Assembly: GCF_009708215.1 (NCBI RefSeq)
Contig: NZ_CP046175.1
Location: 5,270,001 to 5,334,000 of the forward strand
Reading direction: 5' to 3'
Length of the DNA stretch: 64,000 bases
DNA from: Occultella kanbiaonis
GTDB lineage: Bacteria > Actinomycetota > Actinomycetes > Actinomycetales > Beutenbergiaceae
The notes beneath the pieces are model-generated. The model saw nothing but the letters and a program-made list of their open reading frames with translations, was not told the origin of the DNA and ran no database searches. Below, piece after piece: positions 3,549 through 55,058 of this stretch. Position 1 is the first letter of the stretch; every line of letters begins with the position of its first letter. The translations under genes and the position numbers were made by a program.

Positions 3549-4403
3549 ATGACGACCGAGACCCGCTACGTCCGGCCGCCGCGGGAGACCCTCGACGCGC
3601 TGCTCGAGGAGGGATTCCGCGCCGCCGGCGAGAGCGCGCGCCCTCCGGACGCGACCTGGATCGAGGTCGGCTCGAGCACCCTCGTCGTGCTCGCCGGCCG
3701 CACCGCCCTGCGCGTCGCGCGCCAGCCGTCCGTTGCCGGCGAGCTGCGCCGGGCCCAGGCCCTCGTCGACGCCCTGCCGGCCCTGCCGTTCGCGGTGCCG
3801 GAGTCCACCGGCGAACCCGTGACCATCGACGGTTTCCAGGCCATCCCGACGCTGCTGGTCGAGGGCGAGCCGCATCCGCCGAACGAGGGCGACCCGGAGC
3901 CGATCCGAGACCTGCTGGAGGCCGTGCACTCCCTCGACCCCGGACCGCTCCGACCGCACCTGGCGCAGCCGCGATCGTTCATGGGCGGCGCCGACTGGGA
4001 GCAGGTGCTGCGCGATCGCGTCGTGGAGTTGCTGAGCCCGAACCTGCAGGACGAGGCCCGACGGCGCATCGATGCCCTTGCAGGTCTCGAGCCTCCGTCG
4101 GTGGTCGTCAACCACGGCGACCTCGCCGGCTCGAACGTGCTCTGGCACGACGGCCGGGTCAGCGGGGTCCTCGACTGGGACCTGACCGCCCTGGACGACC
4201 CTGCCGAGGACCTGTCCAGCCTCGCGTCCTGGCATGGCTGGGCGCTCGCGCCAGCACTCGCCGATCCCGCCACCGTTGCGCGCGCGGAGGTGTTCCGGCG
4301 GTCTGTCGGGTTGCAGCAGGTCGCCTTCAGCGTGCTGCACGACCGCCCGGCGGACGAGGTGGCCCGGGTCGTGGCGCGCGCCGAGCGGCACCTGGCCGCG
4401 TGA
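3549..4403 (+). CDS. Aminoglycoside phosphotransferase (APH)-family kinase
   Basis: The 284-residue product has the APH/choline kinase fold. The catalytic loop is VVNHGDLAGSNVLWHDGR (HGDxxxxN) around residues 190-205, and the metal-binding motif VLDWDLTALDDPAEDL follows. The N-lobe includes VLAGRTALRVAR. The family phosphorylates aminoglycosides, macrolides or small metabolites; nothing in the sequence names the substrate, and chromosomal members in actinobacteria are usually not clinical resistance genes. TACCGT at 3537-3542 ends 6 nt before the ATG, suggesting leaderless transcription. It converges on the ECF41 gene with a 32-nt gap. Confidence 0.85.
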   Translation: MTTETRYVRPPRETLDALLEEGFRAAGESARPPDATWIEVGSSTLVVLAGRTALRVARQPSVAGELRRAQALVDALPALPFAVPESTGEPVTIDGFQAIPTLLVEGEPHPPNEGDPEPIRDLLEAVHSLDPGPLRPHLAQPRSFMGGADWEQVLRDRVVELLSPNLQDEARRRIDALAGLEPPSVVVNHGDLAGSNVLWHDGRVSGVLDWDLTALDDPAEDLSSLASWHGWALAPALADPATVARAEVFRRSVGLQQVAFSVLHDRPADEVARVVARAERHLAA

Positions 4404-4435
4404 GCCCACTGGGCCGGCGGACCCGAGCGGCCCGC

Positions 4436-5326
4436 TCAGCCACCGAACGGCGGCAGCTCGAGGTCGGCCAGCCGGCGCGGGTCGGCGAGCACGTCGATGG
4501 CCACGACCAGCCCGTCCCGGACCGTGAACGCCATCACGAACTGCGGCGTCCCGTGCGGTGCGACCACCACCCCGGCGGCGCCGTTGACGAGGATCGGATG
4601 CACGAACGGTGAGAGCCGCGACGCGGTGAAGGCCTGCCGCGATACGGCAGCCGGCCCGTGCAGCGTCATCGACATCTGCGGACGGGACCGGCCGCCGTCG
4701 GACCGGAGCACGACGTCGGGGTGCAGCACGGCCACCAGCGCGTCGAGGTCACCGTCGCGGGACGCCGCGAAGAAAGCGTCCACGACCGCGCGCTGCGCCC
4801 GCACGTCCGGGTCGGGCTCGGTGGCCGAGGCGGCCACGCGCCGGCGTCCCCGGCTCGCGAGCTGCCGCGTCGCGGCCGACGAACGTTCGAGCATCGGGGC
4901 GATCTCGTCGAACGGTACGGCGAACATGTCGTGCAGCACGAACGCCAGCCGCTCGGCCGGCGGCAGCGTCTCCAGCACGACCATCAGCGCGAGGCCCACC
5001 GAGTCGGCCAGCACCGCCTCCTGCTCCGGGTCCGCTCCGGCCGCCGGCCCGAGCAGCGGATCCGGCACGAGAACGGCGTCATCGAGCCCGTCCTCGCGAC
5101 GGTTCGTCCGCGCCCGGAGCCGGTTCAGGCAGGTGCGCACCACCACCGTGGTGAGCCAGCCCGCCGGGTTCTCGACCCCGGCCAGGCCCGCCCGCTCGGC
5201 GCGCAGCCAGGCGTCCTGCAGCGCATCGTCCGCCTCGGCGAGTGAGCCGAGCATCCGGTACGCGACCGCGCGCAGTCGCGGTCGCTCCCGTTCGAACAGC
5301 CCGGTGAGGTCGTCGCCGCCGTCCAT
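4436..5326 (-). CDS. ECF41-type sigma factor with SnoaL-like C-terminal domain (SigJ-like)
   Basis: The 296-residue product has sigma region 2 at residues 5-75 (FERERPRLRAVAYRMLGSL, then AEDALQDAWLRAE), region 4 around 115-170 (ETLPPAERLAFVLHDMFAVPFDEIAPMLERS), and a C-terminal SnoaL/NTF2-like domain from about residue 185. In ECF41 this domain both activates and inhibits the sigma factor in place of an anti-sigma protein. SDGGRSRP resembles the family's DGGGR motif and the C-terminal ADPRRL resembles NPDKL. An AAGGGA Shine-Dalgarno precedes the ATG. It is divergent from an NAD(P)-binding oxidoreductase, one of the standard ECF41 targets, which strengthens the assignment. Confidence 0.9.
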   Translation of the reverse strand: MDGGDDLTGLFERERPRLRAVAYRMLGSLAEADDALQDAWLRAERAGLAGVENPAGWLTTVVVRTCLNRLRARTNRREDGLDDAVLVPDPLLGPAAGADPEQEAVLADSVGLALMVVLETLPPAERLAFVLHDMFAVPFDEIAPMLERSSAATRQLASRGRRRVAASATEPDPDVRAQRAVVDAFFAASRDGDLDALVAVLHPDVVLRSDGGRSRPQMSMTLHGPAAVSRQAFTASRLSPFVHPILVNGAAGVVVAPHGTPQFVMAFTVRDGLVVAIDVLADPRRLADLELPPFGG

Positions 5327-6890: not shown

Positions 6891-7646
6891 CTACGCGGGC
6901 AGCCGGTACACCGATACGTGGGACCGGGACTCGGCCGTGAACTCCGCACCGGCGAAGTCCGCGTGCCGGCTCTCCAGCGCGAACCCGGCGAGCCGGGCCA
7001 TCAGGTCCAGCTCCGCTGGCCAGATGTAGCGGTGCGGGCTGCGGCCCAGCGTGGCCTCGCGACCGTCCCCGAACCGGAAGTGGTGGGAGACCACCCGCTG
7101 GTTCAACACGTCGTAGGTGTCCAGGCCCACGTAGCCGTCGTCGGCCTGCCACAGCGTGCCCGGGGCACCCGGCGGGAGCTTGCGCAGTTCGGGCACCCAC
7201 AGCTCGATGACGAACGCACCGCCCGGCCGCAGGTGACGGGCCGCATTCGCGAAGCAGGCGACCTGCTCGTCCTGCGTGAGCAGGTTCGAGATCGTGTTGA
7301 ACACGAGATAGACGAGACCGTAGTCGCCCAGGCCGGCGTCCGCCGTCGCCATGTCCCCGACGACCACGGGGAGCTCGGCCTCGCCGACCTTGGTGCGCAG
7401 CTGCGCGACCATCGGCTCCGAGAACTCGATGCCGGTGACCGGCACGTGCTCGGCCAGCGGGATCGCGACCCGGCCGGTGCCGATCGCGAACTCCAGGGCA
7501 CGTCCGCCGTCGGCCAGCGCCGCGAGCCGCTCGACGGTGGGGCCGAGCACCTCCGGGGCGAACATGCCCTCGCCGGGGGTGTCGTAGTCGGCGGCCGCGG
7601 TCGCGTCCCAGAGCTCGGACTGGGTCAGGTCCTCGATGCGGGTCAT
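6891..7646 (-). CDS. Class I SAM-dependent methyltransferase
   Basis: The 251-residue product has the class I methyltransferase motif I (ALEFAIGTGRVAIPLA, residues about 50-65), an acidic residue at the end of the next strand (VTGIEFSEPMV) and a D-x-x-x-L-V-Y-L-V-F-N motif after it. This arrangement with an E-x-A-x-G-T-G-R signature is typical of small-molecule methyltransferases. The acceptor cannot be named. It is transcribed in the same direction as the GNAT gene 56 nt downstream, so the two may be cotranscribed. Upstream it is divergent from the DUF4349 lipoprotein. Confidence 0.86.
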   Translation of the reverse strand: MTRIEDLTQSELWDATAAADYDTPGEGMFAPEVLGPTVERLAALADGGRALEFAIGTGRVAIPLAEHVPVTGIEFSEPMVAQLRTKVGEAELPVVVGDMATADAGLGDYGLVYLVFNTISNLLTQDEQVACFANAARHLRPGGAFVIELWVPELRKLPPGAPGTLWQADDGYVGLDTYDVLNQRVVSHHFRFGDGREATLGRSPHRYIWPAELDLMARLAGFALESRHADFAGAEFTAESRSHVSVYRLPA

Positions 7647-7798
7647 GACCGCGATGCTCGTCGCAAGGTCCCTACGGCGTCCAACGGTTTTCGAGTGGGG
7701 TCACCGCCGGCGGATCCTGGTCACGCTCGCGGCACGGTTGGGCCACAACTTGGCAACAGCCGTTCCCCGCAGCCCGTTCGGCCCGTACGGTCCCGGTC

Positions 7799-8716
7799 AT
7801 GACGCGACTGCGGTGGGGCCTCGCATTCCTTCTCGGCACGCTGCTCGTGGCCGGGTGCTCGAACGCCGGATCGGGATCCGGATCGGAGGGTGCAGGCGGC
7901 GATGCCGGCCACCTGTCGGGCGGCGACGGCGGCAGTGTCGCCGAGCAGGAGGCGGCCGACCGCGACATCAGCGGCGACACCCAGCGGCAGATCATCACCA
8001 CCGGGTCCGCGACCGTGGTGGTCGAGGACCCGGCGGAGGCCGCGGACCGGGTGGCCCTGCTCGCCGAGACGGCCGGCGGCCGGGTGGACCAGCGTTCGGA
8101 GCGGGCCGCCGGATCCGACGGGCCGGACTCCCTCGGCTCGGCGCACCTGACCATCCGGGTGCCGGCCGACGAGGTCAACGCGCTGATCGACGAGCTGGAC
8201 GAGCTCGGCGAGGTCCACGACCTGAACCAGAGCGCCCAGGACGTCACTCAGGTCGCGGTGGATCTGGACGCCCGGATCCTGGCGCTGCAGGCCTCCACCG
8301 ACCGGTTGCTGCAGATCATGGCGGACGCCGCGGACAGCGGTGACCTGCTCGCGGCCGAGTCGGCGCTGAGCGAGCGGCAGGCGGAGCTCGAGTCGCTGCA
8401 GGCCGAGCGCGCGTATCTCGCCGATCAGGTCTCGATGTCCACGCTGGACGTCAACCTGGAAGCGCAGTACGAGCCGACCATCGAGACCGGGGGCTTCCTC
8501 GGCGGCCTCGAGACCGGCTGGCGAGCGCTGGTCACGTTCGCGAGCGGACTGCTGGTGTTCCTCGGTGTGATCGCACCTTGGCTGCTCATCGTGGGCGTGC
8601 CGGTGGCCGCCATCGTGTGGGTGACCCGGCGGCGGCGCCGGCGGGCGTCCGCGACCACCCCCACCCCCGGGAGCCCGGCGCCCACCGACGGCGAGGCTGC
8701 CCCCGATCTGACCTGA
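7799..8716 (+). CDS. DUF4349 lipoprotein
   Basis: The 305-residue product is a secreted, membrane-anchored lipoprotein. The signal sequence GLAFLLGTLLVAGC ends in a lipobox with the modified Cys at residue 20, followed by a Ser/Gly-rich linker. The DUF4349 domain spans about residues 60-235, with ITTGSATVVVEDPAEAADRV and a coiled-coil segment of LLAAESALSERQAELESLQAE type. A transmembrane helix (about 245-275, FLGVIAPWLLIVGVPVAAIVWV) and a basic tail follow, giving a second membrane anchor. The function is unknown. TACGGT at 7786-7791 lies 7 nt before the ATG. Confidence 0.87.
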   Translation: MTRLRWGLAFLLGTLLVAGCSNAGSGSGSEGAGGDAGHLSGGDGGSVAEQEAADRDISGDTQRQIITTGSATVVVEDPAEAADRVALLAETAGGRVDQRSERAAGSDGPDSLGSAHLTIRVPADEVNALIDELDELGEVHDLNQSAQDVTQVAVDLDARILALQASTDRLLQIMADAADSGDLLAAESALSERQAELESLQAERAYLADQVSMSTLDVNLEAQYEPTIETGGFLGGLETGWRALVTFASGLLVFLGVIAPWLLIVGVPVAAIVWVTRRRRRRASATTPTPGSPAPTDGEAAPDLT

Positions 8717-8758
8717 CGCCGATGTGACACGGCCGGACCGGCGTGGTTGGGTCGCGAT

Positions 8759-9727
8759 ATGAACGAACGTCCCCGCGCCGTCGTCGCCGGCGGATCCGGC
8801 TTCATCGGTACCGCCCTGATCGCCGACCTGCGCCGCCGCGGCTACGACGTGGACCGGATCGGGCGGTCCGGACCGGACGCCCGCTGGGGCGATCAGGCCG
8901 AGATCAACGCGCTCGTCGACGGTGCGGACCTGCTCGTGAATCTCGCCGGCAAGAGCGTCGGCTGCCGCTACCACGACCGGAACCGCAACGAGATCTACCG
9001 GTCCCGGATCGAGACCACGCTGGCCCTGCACCGTGCCGTCGGGCGCGCCGCGCAACCGCCCCGACTGTGGCTGAACGCGAGCACCGGGACGATCTACCGG
9101 CACGCGATGGACCGGCCGCAGACCGAGGCCGCGGGCGAGCTCGGTGGCGGGTTCTCGGTGGACGTGGCCCGCAACTGGGAGCGTGTGTTCAGCCACGGCG
9201 ACCTGCCCCGGACCCGCCGAGTGGCGTTACGGATGGCGATCGTCCTCGGCGACGACGGGGCGCTGCCGATGCTGCGCACCGCCGCACGGTTCGGGCTCGG
9301 CGGGCCGGAATACGACGGCTGGTGGCTGCCCCATCGCCGCTACCGCGGGATCGGGCCGCACCCCACCACGTCGAGGGGGGTCGATCACCACACAGGTGGG
9401 CGGCAGCGGTTCAGCTGGATCCACATCGACGACGTGCTCGCGGCCGTCGAGTTCATCGACACCCGTGCGGACCTCGAAGGTCCGGTGAACCTGGCCGTCC
9501 CGGCGACGAGCGACAACACCACGCTGATGGCAGGGCTGCGCCGGGCGGTCGGCGCCCGCGTCGGGCTGCCGGCGCCGCGATGGCTCCTCGAGATCGGGAT
9601 GCTCGTGCTGCGGCAGGAGTCCGAGCTCGTGCTCAAGAGCCGGTGGGTCGCCCCCGAGAAGCTCCTCGCCGCCGGGTTCGAGTTCCGGCACACCGACCTC
9701 GAGGCGGCCCTGCGCGACCTCGCGTGA
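8759..9727 (+). CDS. TIGR01777-type NAD-dependent epimerase/dehydratase
   Basis: The 322-residue product has the N-terminal Rossmann motif VVAGGSGFIGTALIADL, and the segment LVNLAGKSVGCRYHDRNRNE is diagnostic of the TIGR01777 (YfcH/SulA-like) group of extended SDRs. FSWIHIDDVLAAVEFI and the C-terminal DUF1731 region with RWVAPEKLLAAGFEFRH complete it. No substrate is established for this group. The ATG at 8759 is chosen over a TTG at 8747 because the NAD motif follows at normal distance. Its 3' end faces the coiled-coil gene at 9807 across a 79-nt gap. Confidence 0.87.
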   Translation: MNERPRAVVAGGSGFIGTALIADLRRRGYDVDRIGRSGPDARWGDQAEINALVDGADLLVNLAGKSVGCRYHDRNRNEIYRSRIETTLALHRAVGRAAQPPRLWLNASTGTIYRHAMDRPQTEAAGELGGGFSVDVARNWERVFSHGDLPRTRRVALRMAIVLGDDGALPMLRTAARFGLGGPEYDGWWLPHRRYRGIGPHPTTSRGVDHHTGGRQRFSWIHIDDVLAAVEFIDTRADLEGPVNLAVPATSDNTTLMAGLRRAVGARVGLPAPRWLLEIGMLVLRQESELVLKSRWVAPEKLLAAGFEFRHTDLEAALRDLA

Positions 9728-9806: not shown

Positions 9807-10484
9807 TCAGCGCGGCGGCTGGTCGAGCCCCGTGATCAGCCGCTGGTTCGCGGCGATCGTGCGCTCCAGGTCCGCGAACGCGGCTCGCACCTGCGGGGAG
9901 TCCGGGTCGTCCCAGGCGATCTCGTCCCGGGCGGCCGCCTCGGCCTGGATACGGCGCATGTGGTCGCGGGCCTGCGCGGTCTGGTCCGCCTGAGGCCCGG
10001 CGGCGCCGAGCGCTGACTGGATGTTCAGGGCTGCGGTGGCGGCGTCCCGGTCGGCGCGCAGGTCGTGCAGTTGTGCGGTGGCGTGGTGCAGCTGCGACTC
10101 GAGCAGGTCCAGGCGCTGCTCGAGGTGGGTGACCTGGTCGTCCAGGGTCGCGAACCGCGTGCGCAGCGCGTCCCGGCGACGCTCGGCGTCGATCGCGTCG
10201 GTCAGGTGTCGCCTGCCGATCTCGTCCTGCCCGTCCGCGACGGCCCGGCGGGCCCGCTCGGTCGCGGCCCGCGCCTCGTCCTCGGCGCGTCCCGCCTGCA
10301 GTTCCGTGCGGCGGCGGCTCACGCTCAGGTCGACGAGCGAGCGCCGCGCGGTGGCGAGCAACGCCTGCTGCTCGGACAGGTGGGCCGCGAGCCGCTCGGC
10401 TGGGTCCCCCTTGGGGGTACCCGCGCGGCGCACCCGCACCAGGCGCACCAGCCGCGTACGGATCCTGCTCTCAGCCACGGCCAC
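9807..10484 (-). CDS. PspA/IM30-like coiled-coil protein
   Basis: The 225-residue product is almost entirely charged helix. About residues 25-175 are predicted coiled coil rich in A, E, R and L heptads (for example ERARRAVADGQDEIGRRHL and LDDQVTHLEQRLDLLESQL). The pattern resembles PspA/IM30 membrane-stress proteins, though it is not a strong match. Two in-frame GTGs (10484 and 10478) are possible starts; GGGGA lies just upstream of the first, so I used that. It overlaps the upstream gene's 3' end by 14 nt, so the two are translated together. Function is inferred only from shape. Confidence 0.7.
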   Translation of the reverse strand: MAVAESRIRTRLVRLVRVRRAGTPKGDPAERLAAHLSEQQALLATARRSLVDLSVSRRRTELQAGRAEDEARAATERARRAVADGQDEIGRRHLTDAIDAERRRDALRTRFATLDDQVTHLEQRLDLLESQLHHATAQLHDLRADRDAATAALNIQSALGAAGPQADQTAQARDHMRRIQAEAAARDEIAWDDPDSPQVRAAFADLERTIAANQRLITGLDQPPR

Positions 10485-11079
10485 CGGTCCCCGGATCGGG
10501 CAGGGCGTCACGATCGGCGCGTCGGTCCCAGGTGCGCAGGGCCTCACCCTCGATCTGCAGCCGCTCGGCGGCGGCCCCCAACTCGGCAGCGGCGCTGTGG
10601 TTGCCCATCGCGGACTCCCGCACCGCGGTGGCGAGCCGCCGGTACTCACCGACCTCGCCCGAGATCCGTTCGGTGAGACGGGCCCGCAGCGCCGGGTCCG
10701 GCTCGCGCTCGACGAGTCTGAGCCGCTCGTCCAGGCCGGCGGCGACCGTCTCCAGGTGCTCGGCGATCGCGGGCAGCTCCCCGACCGGGCGACCCTGCGC
10801 GCCGGCGGCCGTGAGCGCCCGGGTGGTCGCCTCCCGCTCCCGCGCGATCGCCAACTGAAGGCGTGCGCCCTGGCGACCTGCGCCGTCGGACACCACGCTG
10901 CGAGCGCCGAGCAGGCCGCGGTCCACCCCGCGACGCAGCGCCTTCGAGCGGCGCACCCGGCGAACCACCAGCCAGAACGCGGTCCCCACGGCCGCGACGC
11001 CCACGGCGGCGGTGCCCGCGAGCACCGCGAGGGTCGTCACCACGAATTCGGTGGCAGCGGTGATCGTCTCGGCGGGCAT
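10471..11079 (-). CDS. Membrane-anchored coiled-coil protein
   Basis: The 202-residue product has one N-terminal transmembrane helix (about residues 10-35, VVTTLAVLAGTAAVGVAAVGT) followed by basic residues VVRRVRRSK, so the rest lies in the cytoplasm. The cytoplasmic part is Ala/Glu/Arg-rich helix with probable coiled coil. I do not recognise a named family. Its 3' end overlaps the PspA-like gene, and the pairing of a membrane-bound and a soluble coiled-coil protein suggests an envelope-associated complex. That role is inferred. Confidence 0.72.
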   Translation of the reverse strand: MPAETITAATEFVVTTLAVLAGTAAVGVAAVGTAFWLVVRRVRRSKALRRGVDRGLLGARSVVSDGAGRQGARLQLAIAREREATTRALTAAGAQGRPVGELPAIAEHLETVAAGLDERLRLVEREPDPALRARLTERISGEVGEYRRLATAVRESAMGNHSAAAELGAAAERLQIEGEALRTWDRRADRDALPDPGTGGRG

Positions 11080-11255
11080 CTGCTCTCACCTCGATCTCGG
11101 CCGCTGGGGTGGGGATTCCACTCTACGACGCCGCGGCGGGCCACCCGAAGGCGATTCGTTTCCAACCACGTCCGACCCGCGCCGAGAAGCGGCCAGGATC
11201 TGACCTGTTCGGCTCCTAACGTTGTCCTCATCAGCCACCGATGAAGGAGCAGCAC

Positions 11256-11672
11256 ATGTTGCGCGGACTCACCACGATCACCTACCTCGCCGACGACGTC
11301 GCGGCGGCGGCCCGCTGGTACGCGGAACTGCTCGGGACCGCGCCCTACTTCACCCGCCCCGAGACCGGCGACCCGGCCTACGTCGAGTTCCGGATCGGCG
11401 ACTACAGCCACGAGCTCGGAATCATGTCCGCCGCATACTCCCCACACCCGCACGGCGAGCCCGCCGGCGCCACCGCGTACTGGGCCGTGGATGACCTCGA
11501 CGCCGCCGTGGCCCGGGCCCTCGCACTCGGTGCCACGGCCCACGAACCGATCACGACCCGCGGCGACGGCTTCGTGACGGCCTCCGTGGTCGACCCGTTC
11601 GGCAACATCCTCGGGCTCATGTTCAACCAGCACTACCTGGACGTGCTCGCCCAGCGCGACCGGACCGACTGA
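11256..11672 (+). CDS. VOC (glyoxalase/bleomycin resistance) family protein
   Basis: The 138-residue product has a single vicinal-oxygen-chelate unit pair: LTTITYLADDVAAAARWYAELLGTAPYF at the N-terminus and VDDLDAAVARALALGATAHEPI in the second half, ending VVDPFGNILGLMFN. These proteins bind a metal and act as lyases, dioxygenases or resistance proteins; the target is not evident. The ATG at 11256 is chosen over the one at 11241 because GAAGGAG (11243-11249) is an ideal Shine-Dalgarno for it, and it would otherwise be coding. It converges on the ABC ATPase gene with a 24-nt gap. Confidence 0.85.
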   Translation: MLRGLTTITYLADDVAAAARWYAELLGTAPYFTRPETGDPAYVEFRIGDYSHELGIMSAAYSPHPHGEPAGATAYWAVDDLDAAVARALALGATAHEPITTRGDGFVTASVVDPFGNILGLMFNQHYLDVLAQRDRTD

Positions 11673-47879: not shown

Positions 47880-48053
47880 CCCTCGACGCGACGGCCACGG
47901 ACACGGACCCGTCTCTTCGACGTCGTAGCAGCGGACGCAGTCCGGAGTGGTGGCCTCGAGCTCCCTGCGCGGGCGGCAGTCGAACCGCGTCGTGCGGCCG
48001 AGGCGCCCACTCTCTTGGGCCGCGTCAAACCGCCCAGATTGACGCTTGCATCC

Positions 48054-50039
48054 CTAGTCTGGAACGAACAGAGTGCCGCGTTCGTCGATGGTCTCAGCGG
48101 TGTCGAGCCACATCGTCATGGGCACCGCCCCGCCGCCACGCGGAAGTCGAGACCATGCCAGCTCCCCACCCACCCTGCCGAGACCGCGTGAAACCGCTTC
48201 GAGGACAGCCAACAGCGCCCCCACCTCGGCGTACATGCCTGCTTCGATGAACGGGTGTGAGTCCTGGGCGGTTTCGACCTCCGCAAAGAGCTTCTGCGCC
48301 TGAACTGCCACGTGATGGTCGTCCGGATGCATTCGGTCCGCCGTGAGCACATGGACCCGGCCGAAAGTGCCCATGTTCACCAGCACGCCTAGTTTCTTGG
48401 ACCAATGCTGGTGCGCCTCGAAGCGAAGAGTCTGAGCACCGCCGACGTCGCCGCCGGTTCGGTTGGCTTCTTCCCACGCTCGCTCGCGCAGGGCGACTTG
48501 GTTCGCGGCCGTCTCCAGATCTACGAGCGCGCTCGCGAAACGGTCCCGCGCTGAGATACCGGCTGCGATGCGCAGCACCTCAAACCTCTGCCAGACATCT
48601 TCTATCGCTGTCGGCGAGAGTGCGAGAGTTTCGATCAAGAGCGGGCTGAGTTTCGCGAACAATTCGCGGCCCGCGGGCGCATGCTCGTAGTAGATCTGCT
48701 CGGGCTCGTAGAACTCGGCCAGCGACATCCGATTGTTCGACCTGTGCGGGTGGGTCACCGTGGTGCGGAGCATCGCATCAAGCGCCTTCCACCGGCCGGT
48801 GGCCACGGCGGATACGCCTGCCGCGTAGAACAGCCACAGCCCCGCAACTCGACGGACACTGAGCAGGCGGATGAGCCCGTCGCCGCGGGACCTGTACGAG
48901 AACCGTTCGAGTTCCGGAGCCCACCACGACTGGGTGCCGGCGCCGCCCCAGTACGCGAGCGTCGCGGTTAGTGCAGCCGGCAGACGAACCGACTCCTCGA
49001 TGCGCGCCAGAATCGCGCCGTATCCGCCAGCTTCCTGTTCCTGCTTCGAGTCGCTGTACAAGAAGTCCGGGTGCTGGTGAAGGTCGCTGAACGCGCTGGC
49101 TAGGGCATCGTGCACGCCCACCGCCACGCTCCGCCCAGACAGCTCGCGCTTCGCCGTCGCGACAGCGACCGGAACCGTCAGCGGATGAGCGGCTCCACGG
49201 GTGCGGAGCGCGGTGACCGCATCGGCCAGCCTGGCGAACGCGTCGTCGGCCGTAGTCTGCAACAACGTCCCACGCTTGAGTTGGAGCAGCGCACTCCCCG
49301 CTTCGCTCAACGCGAACGGTTCAATCCACGCCAGGGGGTATCGCACGAAGTTGTGCCGCGCCTCGATGGCGGCACGCAGGGCGATGTCATAGGTCGCGGA
49401 CCAGCCAGCGACTAATAGGCCGTAGTCGTCGAGGATGCGCTCGATGAGCTTCTGGGTCTGCGAGGCGTACCTCTCCAGCTCAGCGTCGGTGTTGAGCATC
49501 GAGTCTGGGTTCTTGTAGTCGCCGTGAAGGTGAATGACGACGCAGTCGAGCTGGTGGAGCGGCCGCATCCCGTCGACCTCGGAGGGGTGGGTGATGACGG
49601 TGGGTTCGATGCCAGCGGCGCGGAGCGCCTGTTCGATGAGTCGGTCGAAGTTCAGGGTGATGATGACCTTGATGGCGCCGTCAGCGACGAGGCGGGCGAT
49701 GCCGTGGTGCGCGGCGGTGGGCTGCTTGAGACCGGCCTCGCGCTCTTCGGCCGCAACCTCGAAGTAGTTCTCCAAGAGGGCCTGACGCAGAGCCGGGGTC
49801 TTTGCGAGCCTTTCGAGGAGCCGGCCGTAGGTCGGTTCTTCGCCACGGGTGCGCTCCCACCACTTCTCGGGCGCTTCCTGCCCGAGGTCGACGCCTTCGG
49901 CGCGCGCGACTTGGCGGCACAGGTCGACCAGAACGCCCCACGCGACGGGGATGCCGGAGGAGTAGGAGGTGCCGGCGCCGATGAGGAGCGCGTAAGCCCC
50001 AGGGTTGGAGTGAAGATGGGCGAGTGTGAGAAGTTCCAT
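48054..50039 (-). CDS. SIR2-domain protein, probable antiphage NADase
   Basis: The 661-residue product has an N-terminal SIR2-like domain. The nucleotide loop is LLIGAGTSYSSGIP (residues 18-31), the catalytic Asn/Asp motif is TLNFDRLIE (N130, D132) and the catalytic His lies in VVIHLHGDYKNPDS (H172). Such stand-alone SIR2-like domains in defence systems (Thoeris ThsA, DSR, SIR2-HerA) cleave NAD to kill the infected cell. Residues about 300-661 are helical with no recognised fold and are probably the sensor or assembly part. The ATG at 50039 has GAGG about 9 nt upstream. Codon use is less GC-biased than in neighbours, suggesting transfer. It is divergent from the ApeA-like gene. Confidence 0.85.
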   Translation of the reverse strand: MELLTLAHLHSNPGAYALLIGAGTSYSSGIPVAWGVLVDLCRQVARAEGVDLGQEAPEKWWERTRGEEPTYGRLLERLAKTPALRQALLENYFEVAAEEREAGLKQPTAAHHGIARLVADGAIKVIITLNFDRLIEQALRAAGIEPTVITHPSEVDGMRPLHQLDCVVIHLHGDYKNPDSMLNTDAELERYASQTQKLIERILDDYGLLVAGWSATYDIALRAAIEARHNFVRYPLAWIEPFALSEAGSALLQLKRGTLLQTTADDAFARLADAVTALRTRGAAHPLTVPVAVATAKRELSGRSVAVGVHDALASAFSDLHQHPDFLYSDSKQEQEAGGYGAILARIEESVRLPAALTATLAYWGGAGTQSWWAPELERFSYRSRGDGLIRLLSVRRVAGLWLFYAAGVSAVATGRWKALDAMLRTTVTHPHRSNNRMSLAEFYEPEQIYYEHAPAGRELFAKLSPLLIETLALSPTAIEDVWQRFEVLRIAAGISARDRFASALVDLETAANQVALRERAWEEANRTGGDVGGAQTLRFEAHQHWSKKLGVLVNMGTFGRVHVLTADRMHPDDHHVAVQAQKLFAEVETAQDSHPFIEAGMYAEVGALLAVLEAVSRGLGRVGGELAWSRLPRGGGAVPMTMWLDTAETIDERGTLFVPD

Positions 50040-50110
50040 CCTCGGGAGACCTCGGCACCTACCCCGAGACCGTCGCACCAACACGCGCTACACCTCATCT
50101 GGGAAACGCC

Positions 50111-50139
50111 CTGAAACAGGTCACGGGGCTGCGTAGATT
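50111..50139 (+). promoter_or_regulatory. Promoter of the ApeA-like gene
   Basis: CTGAAA (50111-50116) and TAGATT (50134-50139) are 17 nt apart, and the ATG at 50146 follows 6 nt later, so the transcript probably starts at the start codon. No Shine-Dalgarno is present. The site lies in the 106-nt divergent region shared with the SIR2 gene. Confidence 0.5.
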
Positions 50140-50145
50140 CGGATC

Positions 50146-51492
50146 ATGCATATCGCTGTGGGGCCTGCGCAGACTCGGGTCGGTCACCTTGTTGATGGCG
50201 CAGCTACCCCTCATCAGGCTGCAACGCTTACATATGAGCCGCAGATGGGCCCTCTCCTCTCGGTGCCCTACATCCGTGGCGACGGCCAGTTTGCACACGC
50301 CGTGGACTGGTTTGACGGCCAGCGGCCACCTGAGTCGCTGATCTTCGCCGATGACCGTGGAGTGGTGACTCTCACCGGGCTGAGATGGCGGGGTCACACC
50401 GGCCACCCGTATCGCGTTGGTCGACTATCGCCTTCAGCCACCTTCAATGGCCGCCCCAGGAGGCTGAACGATTGCTACAGAGTTCGGTCTTTCACCTCCC
50501 AGATTGATGGCCTGGCAGAGTTCGCTGGGATCGGCTCGGTGGAGGTAAGCGAGCCTCGCAGCCGAGCCGAGCCCATCACTGCGATTCTCAGGCCAGACGA
50601 ACACTTCCGCTGGCGACACGATGGCTGCACACACGAGATCCGAACCAGCGCGGTCTGGAGCGCACAGGTTGGTCAGAGCTTTAACGCGAGCACTGAAGCA
50701 TTCCTCAGCAGCACTCGAGCCAGGCGGCAGACTCCCGAGGAGTACCTGGTTTCGCAGTGGCCACTCCGCGCACTCCTTGTCCTCGCCTTCGGTGCGCGGT
50801 TGTCTTGGCGCGGGCACAGCATCAAGGATGAGAGCTTTCCAACATGGACGCTTGATGGCGCGGCCCGCAAACCCGGTGAGGTCGCGGTGCAACTTCAGCG
50901 CACCGCGGAGGACGCCGAGCAGCCATCTCCAAAGTCGTCTGATCTCGCCCTTCCGATGCTCTCGCTTCGAGATCTTGGAACGCCCGGCCTCAAGCGCTGG
51001 TATCGACTATATGACGACACCGTCTTCAGGCGGGCTGTCGAACCGGCCGTCGCTGTCATCAATGGCGCCTCTCGTTTCCTGGAACCTCAGCTCATCATGA
51101 CTGCCATGTCTCTCGAAGCTGCGGGCTACTACCGCGACCCGAATCGGCGTCCGAGAGAGAGATTGGAGCGTCAAGTACAACGCTGCGTTGCGGCAACGGG
51201 CCATGATTGGTCCGCCATCGGATCCGAGCGTGGTATCGCGCGAGCCATAGCGAAGACTACTAATGACCTGAAGCACGCCGACAGACCCGACCGTCCCAAC
51301 GCAGTCGAGCTCAGGGTGATCACCGACCTCGCTAAGCTGATCATGCGGATGCAGATCTTGGACCTCCTTCATACTCCCGCCAAGACCAGGCAGAGCTTCG
51401 TGAGAACGAACGCAGTTCTCCGCGTCATCGAGACGTTCGAACTCAACGGCGTAGTCGTCCTCGAAGACGGTTCGCTCAAGCAGGATGCCTGA
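50146..51492 (+). CDS. ApeA/HEPN-like protein, probable abortive-infection defence
   Basis: The 448-residue product looks like an ApeA-type defence protein. The N-terminal half resembles the ApeA NTD beta domain (SLIFADDRGVVTLTGLRWRG, then AHAVDWFDGQRPP). The C-terminal third is helical, HEPN-like, with MTAMSLEAAGYYRD and KTTNDLKHADRPDRP near residues 370-385. HEPN RNases use R-x4-6-H; here the spot is K370-x6-H377, or N373-x3-H377, so the Arg seems replaced. Codon use is AT-richer than the flanks. The assignment is moderate. Position next to a SIR2 gene supports a defence role. Confidence 0.6.
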   Translation: MHIAVGPAQTRVGHLVDGAATPHQAATLTYEPQMGPLLSVPYIRGDGQFAHAVDWFDGQRPPESLIFADDRGVVTLTGLRWRGHTGHPYRVGRLSPSATFNGRPRRLNDCYRVRSFTSQIDGLAEFAGIGSVEVSEPRSRAEPITAILRPDEHFRWRHDGCTHEIRTSAVWSAQVGQSFNASTEAFLSSTRARRQTPEEYLVSQWPLRALLVLAFGARLSWRGHSIKDESFPTWTLDGAARKPGEVAVQLQRTAEDAEQPSPKSSDLALPMLSLRDLGTPGLKRWYRLYDDTVFRRAVEPAVAVINGASRFLEPQLIMTAMSLEAAGYYRDPNRRPRERLERQVQRCVAATGHDWSAIGSERGIARAIAKTTNDLKHADRPDRPNAVELRVITDLAKLIMRMQILDLLHTPAKTRQSFVRTNAVLRVIETFELNGVVVLEDGSLKQDA

Positions 51493-51762
51493 CGGTTTCC
51501 AGCAGCACCAGAGCAATCAACGGGTCGATAGGTCCGGGCGCGAGCCGCGTCCTTCCGCCGCGATCGGACCAGTTGTCTGGTCGGCGTGGTTTCGTGGCGT
51601 TCATGGCCTCGCCACGCGGGCGGCGGGTGCTGTCGGGCTCCCGATCCCGGCGTTGTTGACCAGCGCAGAGGTGTGTTCGGTGACTAGTGCGATCTCGTCC
51701 GCGAGGTGGTGCCACTGCGTGACCACGCCGCTGTGGGCGCGGACTATCCGTCGGTCGGGTGT
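51493..51762. other. Intergenic stretch with no supported gene
   Basis: The span between the ApeA-like stop and the repeat array shows open frames on both strands, but none has family motifs or a Shine-Dalgarno. I see no terminator hairpin. It may be debris of the island. Confidence 0.5.
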
Positions 51763-51827
51763 TCACGATTGCACAGCGCCCGCCCTCACATTTGCTACGT
51801 TAATGTGTTCACGTTTGCGTAGTTCAC
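51763..51827 (+). repeat. Three repeats TCAC(G/A)(A/T)TTGC at exact 23-bp spacing
   Basis: TCACGATTGC (51763), TCACATTTGC (51786) and TCACGTTTGC (51809) start exactly 23 bp apart, and a partial TCACGGC follows at 51824. The array lies directly upstream of the ATPase pseudogene start at 51834. Copies 2 and 3 match at 13 of 16 positions. It looks like an operator array for a repeat-binding regulator or an iteron-like site. Confidence 0.65.
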
Positions 51828-51833
51828 GGCATC

Positions 51834-53136
51834 ATGTCTGCTAGGTCAGGCGTCCTCGATTCACCCGTGCCACGTAGAGTCAGTGAGCTCCTGGCGGACC
51901 TGGTCACGGCGGAACCGGTGATAGTTCTGCACGGGCCGCGGTCGGTAGGCAAGTCCACGATGCTGCGAAGATTCGCTGCCGGCGCCGAGGGGGGTCGGTT
52001 CTCGACCTGGACGACATCGAGGCGCGTGAGGCGGTCGTTGGGAACCTGGCCGCGGTCGTCGCTGGCCAGGCACCGGTGTGCGTCGACGAGTACCAGCGGG
52101 TGCCCGACATCCTGGATGCGCTCAAAGCCCGGCTGAACCGCGAGGGCAGCCTCCCCGGGACTGCCGTCATCACCGGCTCGACCCGACAGGACGCCTTGCC
52201 CGCCACAGCGCAGGCCCTCACCGGACGCCTGCACTCGTTGACCATCTGGCCGCTGTCCCAGGGTGAGATCGCCAGAGTTCGGGAGAACCTGCTCCAGACA
52301 CTGAGAACCGACCCTGACGGCGTGGTCAGCCAGGTCCCTCTTCCAAAACCACCCGCCAGGACTACGTAGAACGCGTCTGCGCAGGCGGGTTACCCATGGC
52401 TTTGCGACGTTCCGGCCCGGCTCAAACGCGCTGGTTCGACGACTTCGTACGGGCATCGGTCGAACGGGATGCTCTAGAGCTGAGCCGAATCCGCGAACGA
52501 CAAGCCATGACCGACCTGCTGGGCCTGGTCGCCGCGCAGACAGGGCAACTGCTGAACACCTCTGCCGCCGCGGACAAGCTCGGCGTCAGCCGAGCCACCA
52601 CCGAGAATCATCTGCGGCTGCTCGAGGACCTCTTCCTTGTGGTGCGACTGCCGGCGTGGGGCAAGACCCTGCGTTCACGCGTCAGCGTCAAGCCCAAGGT
52701 GCACGTCGTCGACTCCGGACTGGCCGCCCGGCTGCTCCGGCTCACGCCCGACAAGTTCGCGGGACTCGACCCGGCATCACTGTCCGACTTCGGGCACCTG
52801 CTGGAGACCTTCATCGTCGGAGAGATCCGCAAGCAGACCTCCTGGCTCGATGAGCCGGTCACGCTGGGCCATTGGCAGACCAGCGACGGTGCAGAGGTCG
52901 ACCTGGCTATCGAGTACGACGACGGCACAGTCCTCGCCTTCGAGGTCAAGGCCAGCGAACGCGCAACCGGCGCCGATTTCCGCGGTCTGACCCAACTGCG
53001 CGATGCCCTTGGACCACGGTTCGCCGGCGGAATCATCCTCACGACCGGAACTCGCTCATACACCTACGCCGACCGCCTCCACGTCATGCCCATCGACCGA
53101 CTGTGGACTCCCGTCACACCCGAGCCCGCGCACTGA
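51834..53136 (+). pseudogene. AAA ATPase with DUF4143 domain, two frameshifts
   Basis: Three consecutive reading frames together make one ATPase of about 430 residues. Frame one (51834 onward) has Walker A IVLHGPRSVGKSTML. At about 52000 the frame shifts by one base (cggttctcgac reads RFST instead of the expected RFLDLDD). Frame two has Walker B in VCVDEYQRVPDILDALK and the segment LTIWPLSQGEIARV. At about 52340-52355 it shifts again. Frame three has GLPMALRRSG, the winged helix AADKLGVSRATTENHLRLLEDLFLVVRLPAWG, and the DUF4143 core KVHVVDSGLAARLLRLTP, HLLETFIVGEIRKQTSWL, AIEYDDGTVLAFEVKAS. The first shift follows a run of six G, so a sequencing error at one site is possible; two sites argue for real decay. 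Confidence 0.8.
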
Positions 53137-53972
53137 CCCACCACCAAGAGCATCGACGCTCGCTACTGCCGCGAATCGGGAGTTCTTAAGGCACGTCAAT
53201 CCGCCGTGCGACACGGTGGGTCGGGCGGTCGTACCGTGCTGACGCCGACGCCCAGCCAGCCCGCACTGAGCGCTCGCCTCGGGTTCGTGACCTGCTCGGA
53301 CCACGGCCCAGCGTCGACCCAGGCGTTGCCAGGTCCAAGAATGCACGGCGGGCACCGAGCGGGCTTGCCCAACGCGCCCGCCACACGCGCAAGGTGGCGG
53401 TGAAAGCTGTGGTGCCGTGGTCGCCTGCGCTCGTTCTCATTGACCGGCACCGATCGTGGCGACCGTGGAGCGCCTCGGGCGCAAGGGAGGTCATGCGGTC
53501 GTGGCGCGCTGCGCGTGCGGACGCCGACTCGGCCGCCGCCTGCTGGTAGGCCGATTGTCGCGTTTCGCTCCCTTTGCTTGACCGTCGCGATGCAGGTCGA
53601 GTCGGGCGGTAACTCCTGCTGGTGGTGCGCACCGCTTTGACGCCACCGCAACACGCCCGATGAACGTTCGGAGGCCAATGGAACAAGTAGGCTCTGCCCG
53701 AGCGCCCGTTCCAGCGCGCGGTCGTGCCGCTGTCCGGTACGCGTGAGTCACCGATCATCCTCCGGCCGATGCGTGTCTCGCCTTAGCGGCGTGCGGGCAA
53801 CCGCGAGGAAGACTGGTCAGAGCACTTCGGTGTGTTCGGCCTCGGCGCCGTACTCGGTACAGTGCCGGCACCGGCTACGCCCAGAGGTGTCCGTGCCCGT
53901 GTCTGAGACCACATAAACTCACGGGAAGGCCGCGGATAACGGATGCCCGGCGAGCGAGGAGATGCTCGATCG
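53137..53972. other. Gene desert of about 0.8 kb
   Basis: The span between the ATPase pseudogene and the EthD gene shows only low-quality frames with no motif, start signal or homology that I can see. The composition is still GC-rich. It could hold decayed sequence from the island or an RNA that I do not recognise. Confidence 0.5.
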
Positions 53973-54266
53973 ATGCACAAGATCACCGTCCAGTACTTCG
54001 ACCCCGCCGACGGCAACGACTTCGAGACTGCCTACCGCGAGCGGCACGTGCCGCTCGTGCAAGCAATCCCCGGTCTCGAGCGCTTCACCATCAGCCTTCC
54101 CCACGCTGATGGCGCGCCATACTTGGTCGCGGAGTTGTGGTTCGCCGACGGCGACGCCCTGAGCACCGCCCAGACCTCCGCCGAGATGGCTCCGGTGAGG
54201 GCCGATTCGGCGACGTATGACGTGGCCCGGCGGGTCATTTTCGCCGGGAGCGTCGAAGACGTCTGA
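53973..54266 (+). CDS. EthD-family protein
   Basis: The 97-residue product is a ferredoxin-like EthD protein: MHKITVQYFDPADGNDFETAYRERHVPLVQAIPGLERF with the typical Y-x-x-x-H and P-G-L-x-R motifs. EthD proteins are small dimeric barrels needed for ether degradation systems; stand-alone members have no known function. The ATG at 53973 has AGGAG about 12 nt upstream. No catabolic genes are near it. Confidence 0.85.
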   Translation: MHKITVQYFDPADGNDFETAYRERHVPLVQAIPGLERFTISLPHADGAPYLVAELWFADGDALSTAQTSAEMAPVRADSATYDVARRVIFAGSVEDV

Positions 54267-54407
54267 TCCAGCGTGGACTGGCGCTGAACTCCTCCAGATC
54301 CTCGCCAGGCACCGGTCCGGGGTCGACAGAACAAGTAGCCGCGCTGGGTGCGCGTCTCATCGCCGTCTGAGGTGCGTGGCGAAGGCTGACATCGCCGACG
54401 CGCGGAC

Positions 54408-54817: not shown

Positions 54818-55058
54818 GCCGCGTTAGACCGTCCTGGACGCGGGAACTCATCGGTCGACCCGCAACCTGAGCACAGCAGTACCCACTCGCGGTCTAATTT
54901 CCGGTCTGCGTGCAGAGACCATCGGGTTCACTCCTGCCCTGCCTCGCCAGATGGACCGCGGGCCCAGTCGTCCCCCAGCCGACGATCCGCAGCGAAACGC
55001 GGCGTCGGGTCGAGCCTGGTCCCACGCTACCGAGGGCATCCCTGAGTGCGCGACCGCG

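Follow-up and report, generated by a model that had tools for sequence, protein, structure and literature searches.

The locus examined here raises the question of whether a SIR2-domain gene and an ApeA/HEPN-like gene, which stand head to head in a 64,000-nt window (the whole stretch of DNA that was analysed), act together as a two-component defence module, as a sequence-only reading had proposed. The features concerned are:

47890..54391, no strand: variable insert, 6.5 kb, 65% GC, between MazG-like and YCII-like genes (names assigned by eye)
48054..50039, minus strand: SIR2-domain gene of the PADLOC family PDC-S65 (PADLOC and Pfam matches), 661 aa from the ATG at 50039
49218..49994, minus strand: SIR2 domain, residues 16-274, presumed NADase (hhalign 99.8%, E 7.2e-29 against three SIR2-APAZ proteins)
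48054..49187, minus strand: C-terminal half, residues 285-661, an unnamed module common to TIR, Schlafen-AlbA_2 and caspase-like proteins, presumed sensor or regulator
50040..50145, no strand: gap of 106 nt that separates the two divergent starts (61 nt if the GTG is used)
50146..51492, plus strand: ApeA-like gene, 448 aa, ApeA_NTD1-like N-terminal half and HEPN-like C-terminal half, judged a separate passenger
51256..51276, plus strand: TTNDLKH, residues 371-377, HEPN motif region with Thr in place of the expected catalytic Arg
51834..53136, plus strand: apparently broken ATPase-type gene (AAA_14/DUF4143), divided among three ORFs

Both genes of the pair are real, open frames, and the sequence-only reading described them accurately: GAGTS (residues 21-25), N130 and D132 (within NFD) and H172 (within LHGDY) are found in one 661-residue protein, the ApeA-like gene lies on the other strand across the 106-nt gap, and the SIR2 gene (65.7% GC) and HEPN gene (61.2%) are AT-richer than the 5 kb to the left (72.9%) and to the right (70.5%). 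An in-frame GTG at 50084 is an alternative SIR2 start, which would give a 676-aa form. A search of 47900-52000 for sigma-70-like promoters gave none, against 0.5 expected, a result that says little for a high-GC genome. Both genes are inside the 6.5-kb insert, whose left edge is uncertain (47890 to 48041), and the same site in three sister genomes holds other, unrelated cargo in two and is nearly empty in one.

If the two genes formed one system, the divergent promoter would co-regulate them and the HEPN protein would serve as sensor, antitoxin or second effector; their adjacency, divergent orientation, short gap and shared low GC are consistent with this. The distribution of the two families argues against it. 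Just one of the 25 genomes or records that carry the SIR2 family (among the matches listed) also carries the HEPN subfamily, and just one of the 11 that carry the HEPN subfamily also carries the SIR2 family. Each time this is the genome of the window itself, so that the pair recurs in none of the other 24 and none of the other 10; absence of the pair elsewhere had been named beforehand as counting against the module. The 25 SIR2 carriers include one gene split over two frames (G118) and two SIR2 halves without the C-terminal module (G276, G414). Counted among the 11 HEPN carriers are a 180-aa fragment only (G125), a Pseudarthrobacter gene in two ORFs (W13) and two genomes admitted by motif (G153, G171), for which the subgroup profile later gave matches of 3.2e-108 and 1.2e-38; one further match (L015 in G065, E 9.2e-4) was dropped because it did not match that profile. 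An alignment of the subfamily (A1) was used for these counts, since Pfam ApeA_NTD1 misses the window's own HEPN gene genome-wide (G000). The nearest SIR2 relative, from Jiangella (G584, 88% identity), tells the same way: its genome lacks the HEPN subfamily altogether, although an IS21-looking element (by eye) lies upstream of its SIR2 gene, and its DNA similarity to the window is confined to 48032-50015, a stretch that covers the SIR2 gene and, beyond its 3' end, a few more bases.

ApeA_NTD1 at large is found in 20 of 199 related genomes (19 above the cut-off) and in 3 of the 25 SIR2 genomes or records, none of the three being of the window's HEPN subfamily. The match is on another contig than the SIR2 gene in G079 and about 69 kb from it in a Streptomyces plasmid. 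Looser pairing is hinted at by a match below the cut-off in a Halobacterium plasmid, where about 7.6 kb separates it from the SIR2 gene, and by a Nocardioides record (L017) in which AbiV, another HEPN family, occupies the same divergent position. Because both families are rare (among 396 genomes of the phylum, 11 have PDC-S65 and 3 the HEPN subfamily), these figures exclude obligatory pairing while leaving room for a loose preference. The two-component module is rejected for want of conserved co-occurrence, and we regard it as very unlikely.

The HEPN protein is, on profile evidence, apparently a remote relative of ApeA, and the name ApeA-like, though correct, is weakly backed by the protein's own match: it matches ApeA_NTD1 at E 0.013 (15.5 bits, under the cut-off of 25.5), whereas that cut-off is passed by all five of its scanned relatives, and the HEPN_Apea cut-off by three of four. 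The HEPN Rx4-6H motif is listed as conserved for ApeA in the part of PMC3710099 that was consulted. The window protein does not match this motif, and the Arg is missing in all 10 subgroup proteins that have the region. Ordinary ApeA relatives read RNxxxH and the window's subgroup [T/Y]Nx2KH; the 22 distinct ApeA_NTD1 loci comprise 14 with the R form, 3 that are members of the subgroup, and 5 in which the motif was unreadable. Thus the ApeA/HEPN kinship proposed earlier stands, and is seen in relatives as well, but the idea that the gene encodes an RNase effector is weakened. An AlphaFold model of the protein alone was too poor for a fold search (pLDDT 33), alignment A1 found no PDB match up to E 0.1, and the protein has no relative in phages and no PHROGs family. 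The gene is probably separate single-gene cargo that shares the insertion hotspot with the SIR2 gene but is unrelated to it.

Each gene taken singly does look like a defence gene, as had been suggested, and for the SIR2 protein a check against defence profiles bears this out. By profile matching it is a member of the PADLOC candidate family PDC-S65 (9.3e-144; Pfam SIR2_2 6.6e-13; both beyond chance), the match spanning profile positions 23-527 of 592 and residues 22-517 of the 676-aa form. PADLOC lists PDC-S65 as a single-gene phage defence candidate, and we found no publication that names the family or reports testing it. The window gene is likewise a lone gene, but it differs from the model by an insert and a longer tail, both in the C-terminal half. 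The catalytic residues N130 and H172 and the conserved D132 are all present. Across the 26 aligned SIR2 proteins (among the matches listed), G21, G23, S25, N130 and D132 are invariant and H172 is replaced by Asn in six, so that the loss of catalytic residues in relatives, raised earlier as a possible objection, applies to the His only. In DSR2 the matching His is required for full activity (PMC10981675, consulted part), which suggests that some PDC-S65 members may not be NADases; the recurrent His/Asn change offers a ready test of whether all are, and it separates L041 and L052, which are closely related proteins. Comparison with the Jiangella gene (dN 0.071, dS 0.431) points to purifying selection on the SIR2 gene.

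The alignment of SIR2 proteins (A2) leaves out weak or broken matches (L006/L011/L040, L007, L008, L009), those with the C-terminal half only (L031, L034), SIR2-APAZ proteins (L032, L033) and plasmid matches (H11, H14-H20), and in addition 18 records beyond those listed. One of the matches left out, L009, appears by eye to be a chance hit on the strand opposite another gene. In PHROGs the SIR2 protein matches two families of unknown function, and phages yielded three weak matches to its SIR2 domain and no relative of the lone C-terminal half; viral contigs gave no relative of the SIR2 or HEPN protein in a search that finds close relatives only. AlphaFold with a three-sequence alignment (the SIR2 protein and two relatives) reached a pLDDT of 40, too poor for a fold search.

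The C-terminal half of the SIR2 protein had been described as lacking a recognised fold, and this is borne out: it has no Pfam match, and its best PDB match (E 0.058) is not significant. All of the 26 aligned SIR2 proteins but L045 and L046, which possess the SIR2 half only, nevertheless carry the module; of these 24, which include the window protein, 23 built the profile (alignment A5, from which L039 was left out as short and L045 and L046 as lacking the module). It is also found fused to TIR_2 (L034, L125, L127), to SLFN_AlbA_2 (L123) and to a caspase-like domain (L124), and standing alone beside a TIR gene (L031). TIR-fused and SIR2-fused modules align by hhalign at 99.9% (E 1.9e-31) and the Schlafen-fused module, a single sequence, at 98.1%, against 0.2% for the APAZ control. 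The window copy is divergent, with 16-21% identity to six non-SIR2 module members. We consider the chances about even that the C-terminal half of PDC-S65, the window protein being one member, is an undescribed immune sensor domain that works without an NTPase or partner and combines with four or more killer domains unrelated to one another (SIR2, TIR, caspase-like and Schlafen-AlbA_2), a commonality that the PDC-S65 model name hides. If so, the many genes that at present bear no more than the label "SIR2 family protein", "toll/interleukin-1 receptor domain-containing protein" or "ATP-binding protein" could be accounted for together by a single structure and a single screen for the trigger, and effector exchange would be seen to extend beyond the STAND, CBASS and CRISPR scaffolds to a simple protein of two domains.

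The genes around the SIR2 relatives vary, and several are of defence type (AbiV, SMODS, ThiF, Mov34), one relative adjoining a SMODS-ThiF-Mov34 cluster. Ten upstream neighbours were scanned: three are above the cut-off for nuclease- or restriction-type families (NERD, two ResIII), two have sub-cut-off matches (Abi_alpha, OLD-like), one is a cell-wall-binding protein and four have no match; neighbours in unannotated genomes were picked by a GC-by-codon-position heuristic, and some may be wrong frames. No gene recurs among the neighbours seen, as judged by product names or by scans of part of them. PDC-S65 genes are lone in plasmids and genomes, and on genomic grounds the family appears to be a single gene without an obligatory partner.

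We think it likely that the SIR2 protein is an NADase that acts on its own in abortive infection, with a sensing or regulatory C-terminal half; it would be one of several effectors that can replace one another on this module, and the HEPN gene would be separate cargo. The N-terminal SIR2 domain, homologous to the NAD+-hydrolysing domain of SIR2-APAZ Argonaute systems, would be the effector, and it looks exchangeable because the same C-terminal half is joined elsewhere to the other domains. This half would keep the NADase inactive as long as no phage cue is present; once one appears, NAD+ would be destroyed and the cell would die or stop before phage release. The protein probably senses such a cue itself rather than a signal produced by a partner, since no recurring gene was seen among the neighbours.

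Two other readings start from the parts of the protein. Its SIR2 domain is closest in the PDB to "Sir2 superfamily" chains of 584-587 residues (E 2.6e-21), which we take to be Geobacter SIR2-APAZ, and this, with the match to the SIR2-APAZ profile and the similar length, would fit a SPARSA-like, Argonaute-associated effector that had lost its Argonaute partner. SIR2-APAZ proteins have an APAZ C-terminal half, however, and that of the window protein is not APAZ (hhalign probability 0.1% against the C-terminal halves of three SIR2-APAZ proteins), matching the TIR-, Schlafen- and caspase-fused proteins instead. The downstream protein was read by eye as pAgo in two of the three SIR2-APAZ loci used (L109, L110), and reading the insert's ORF list revealed no pAgo gene. 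This origin is disfavoured by the nature of the C-terminal half, and we hold it to be highly improbable. Alternatively, as in CBASS or Thoeris, the C-terminal half could be a receptor for a small signal (a nucleotide or ADPR-like) that a distant cyclase or TIR protein produces. Signal-gated systems also employ SIR2, TIR, caspase-like and other effectors, and the lone module beside a TIR gene and the relative beside the SMODS-ThiF-Mov34 cluster point the same way; against these stands the lack of any recurring signal-making gene among the neighbours seen (product names or partial scans), and we consider such a receptor unlikely.

An autonomous NADase of this kind would resemble DSR2 (about 1,000 residues) and DSR1, in which an N-terminal SIR2 domain and a C-terminal sensor likewise share one polypeptide. 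According to the consulted part of PMC10981675, DSR2 senses the tail tube directly. No Dsr model matched the window SIR2 protein in PADLOC up to E 1, and a relative (L041) matches Dsr1 at 5.2e-5 over the SIR2 part. Thoeris ThsA shares the SIR2 core with the window protein at 7.7e-10, its best match being limited to residues 121-215 of the 676-aa form.

The two genes under study are divergent and separated by 106 nt, and an ORF reading returned the coordinates proposed for them in the sequence-only reading:

48054-50039, minus strand, SIR2-domain gene (661 residues)
50146-51492, plus strand, ApeA-like (HEPN) gene (448 residues)

The SIR2 residues named in that reading are all present where it had placed them (GAGTS at 21-25, N130, D132 and H172). 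Both genes are also AT-richer than their surroundings, as it had claimed, and the stretch 47890-54391 has a GC content of 65%, between flanks of 73% and 71%. The Occultella kanbiaonis genome, which consists of one 5.65-Mb contig, contains a single match to each of the two proteins.

When compared with defence profiles, the SIR2 protein matched PDC-S65, a PADLOC model for a single-gene phage defence candidate (E 9.3e-144), and it is a new member of this candidate family. The name PDC-S65 was not found in the literature searched; according to the available part of PMC12988326, guilt-by-embedding is the method behind PADLOC's PDC families, and most of those that one survey includes in its core set have yet to be validated experimentally. 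Relatives of the SIR2 protein are present in Actinomycetota, Pseudomonadota, Bacillota and Archaea, and the family is uncommon, with matches to the protein in 9 of 199 related genomes (E 1e-3), some of them weak; when 396 genomes from the phylum were searched with the PDC-S65 model, 11 matched (threshold 1e-20; two of the eleven are SIR2-APAZ proteins and two match by the C-terminal half only). The closest relatives are from Jiangella aurantiaca (88%) and Nocardioides jensenii (59%), and selection has maintained the gene, to judge by a dN of 0.071 and a dS of 0.431 against the Jiangella gene (661 codons). One genome (G079, locus L037) has two different PDC-S65 SIR2 genes head to head (7363-9147, minus strand, and 9870-11663, plus strand), which belong to distant branches of the tree. 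At a Marinibacterium locus (L126), a PDC-S65 gene has apparently been split by a transposon into pieces at 1754-2842 and 3977-4849, each of which was searched separately.

The best solved relatives in the PDB are SIR2-superfamily chains of 584-587 residues, which we take to be Geobacter SIR2-APAZ. That protein is described in PMC10474274, in the accessible portion of which the entry codes were not found. Residues 16-274 align with the SIR2 domain of three Argonaute-associated SIR2-APAZ proteins (99.8%, profile comparison), and at two of these three loci a downstream protein looks by eye like an Argonaute. Across 26 aligned SIR2 proteins G21, G23, S25, N130 and D132 are invariant, while position 172 is His in 20, including the window protein, and Asn in 6, so that conservation of the catalytic residues among relatives stands for N130/D132 but not for H172. 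On the tree, Asn-172 requires a minimum of five changes, at least three of them forced by well-supported branches, and its clustering is no greater than with shuffled labels. The state has thus changed several times in the family, and two close relatives (loci L041 and L052) differ in having His or Asn here. In DSR2, Ala in place of the corresponding Asn or His lowers NADase activity (PMC10981675, in the part available); the window protein retains the matching His.

Although the SIR2 domain resembles that of SIR2-APAZ, the C-terminal half (residues 285-661) is unlike APAZ (0.1%, no match by profile comparison). The earlier impression that this region has no recognised fold is borne out, in that it has no Pfam match up to E 0.1 and a best PDB match of E 0.058 (a chain named C3HR3_4r); among 23 members the best Pfam match is DUF2972 (0.0094), in one member.

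This C-terminal half, judged by profile similarity, is a module common to four kinds of effector, and it is the part worth following. Two phylum genomes match PDC-S65 by the C-half alone (G088, 5.8e-23; G496, 3.0e-44): one of the proteins has 496 residues with an N-terminal TIR_2 domain, and the other has 294 residues, consists of the C-half alone and is encoded beside a TIR-domain gene. When plasmids were searched with sequences of this kind, four Rhodococcus records proved to encode TIR fusions (at least 95% query coverage), and the other matches were a Mycobacterium intracellulare protein (two records), two Mycolicibacterium records and one Pseudoalteromonas protein. N-terminal domains were scanned in four plasmid proteins, which carry TIR_2 (two Rhodococcus proteins), SLFN_AlbA_2 (Mycobacterium) and a caspase-like domain (Pseudoalteromonas; PADLOC caspase 5.4e-19, PDB metacaspase-4 4.4e-6). 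A profile made solely from SIR2-fused C-halves recovers all six non-SIR2 proteins read (database size 2,880 ORFs): the caspase-like L124 (2e-45), the stand-alone L031 (8.7e-45), the TIR fusions L125 (4.8e-37), L034 (5.2e-30) and L127 (1e-28, matching from profile position 46) and the Schlafen fusion L123 (2e-19, from position 59). In profile comparison with the SIR2-fused C-halves, the TIR-fused set scores 99.9% and the Schlafen-fused C-half 98.1% (single sequence), and a control of TIR-fused C-half against APAZ gives 0.2%. The relationship rests on profiles because identity between the window C-half and the six is low (16-21%). Exchange of the module seems to run in both directions, since two SIR2 relatives (L045 and L046) carry the SIR2 half without it. 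A limited look at listed titles in the open literature found no description of the module. At L121 (6159-9347), an N6 methyltransferase, a stand-alone C-half module and a TIR gene are consecutive on one strand, possibly a split version.

The two-component SIR2-HEPN module proposed in the sequence-only reading is not borne out by the co-occurrence counts. The HEPN alignment matched in one of 25 SIR2-bearing genomes or records, and the PDC-S65 model in one of 11 for the HEPN subfamily, in both cases the window's own genome (plasmid records alone make up 11 of the 25 and 4 of the 11). Because both families are rare, these counts exclude an obligatory pair rather than a loose preference. A Nocardioides locus has AbiV, another HEPN family, divergent from its SIR2 gene in the position of the window's ApeA-like gene (L017, 5177-5857, minus strand), and a Halobacterium plasmid has a sub-cut-off ApeA_NTD1 match, outside the window's HEPN subfamily, about 7.6 kb from a PDC-S65 gene (NZ_CP038633.1, 91363-91629). 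Near four plasmid relatives of the HEPN gene no SIR2-family gene was seen, and the PDC-S65 model matches nothing on those records. SIR2 neighbours vary by locus (SMODS, ThiF and Mov34; a Fic protein; NERD; two restriction-type proteins), and elsewhere comprise transposition, mobilisation and housekeeping genes, one cell-wall-binding protein and four proteins for which no match was obtained. The pairing is most likely an ordinary neighbourhood.

The locus itself is a swap site, which explains two unrelated defence-like genes side by side. Its flanks are retained in all three sister genomes searched, with 248 bp between them in G001 (where the right flank begins further in, at 55055), 2.5 kb in G002, including a gene that by eye resembles a subtilisin-type peptidase, and 6.8 kb in G003, where an IS110 transposase and a 5'-nucleotidase accompany a 785-residue protein (6008-8365 of L082, minus strand). 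The latter has sub-cut-off nucleoside deoxyribosyltransferase-like and ATPase matches and no PADLOC match. G002 and G003 both part from the window at base 47889, directly after the left-hand gene; the true left edge may reach 48041, because the 20 nt at 48022-48041 recur in the G003 insert. The inserts have nothing else of note in common. An AAA_14/DUF4143 ATPase-type gene at 51834-53136 of the window lies across three ORFs and appears broken.

For the HEPN protein, the ApeA-like assignment holds through its relatives (5 of 5 scanned are above the ApeA_NTD1 cut-off, 3 of 5 above HEPN_Apea) and not through the window protein itself, which falls below the Pfam cut-off for ApeA_NTD1. The suggested RNase effector role is weakened: the arginine of Rx4-6H, listed as conserved in ApeA (PMC3710099, in the part available), is absent from all ten subgroup proteins having the motif region, which reads TTNDLKH in the window protein and YNx2KH in the remaining nine. 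RNase activity is uncertain because of this missing arginine. The ordinary R form is present at 14 of 22 distinct ApeA_NTD1 loci; another 3 are members of the subgroup, and the remaining 5 were unreadable with the search pattern. On a Pseudarthrobacter plasmid (L023), the ApeA-like gene is annotated as two ORFs (7971-8783 and 8835-9389) and is apparently broken.
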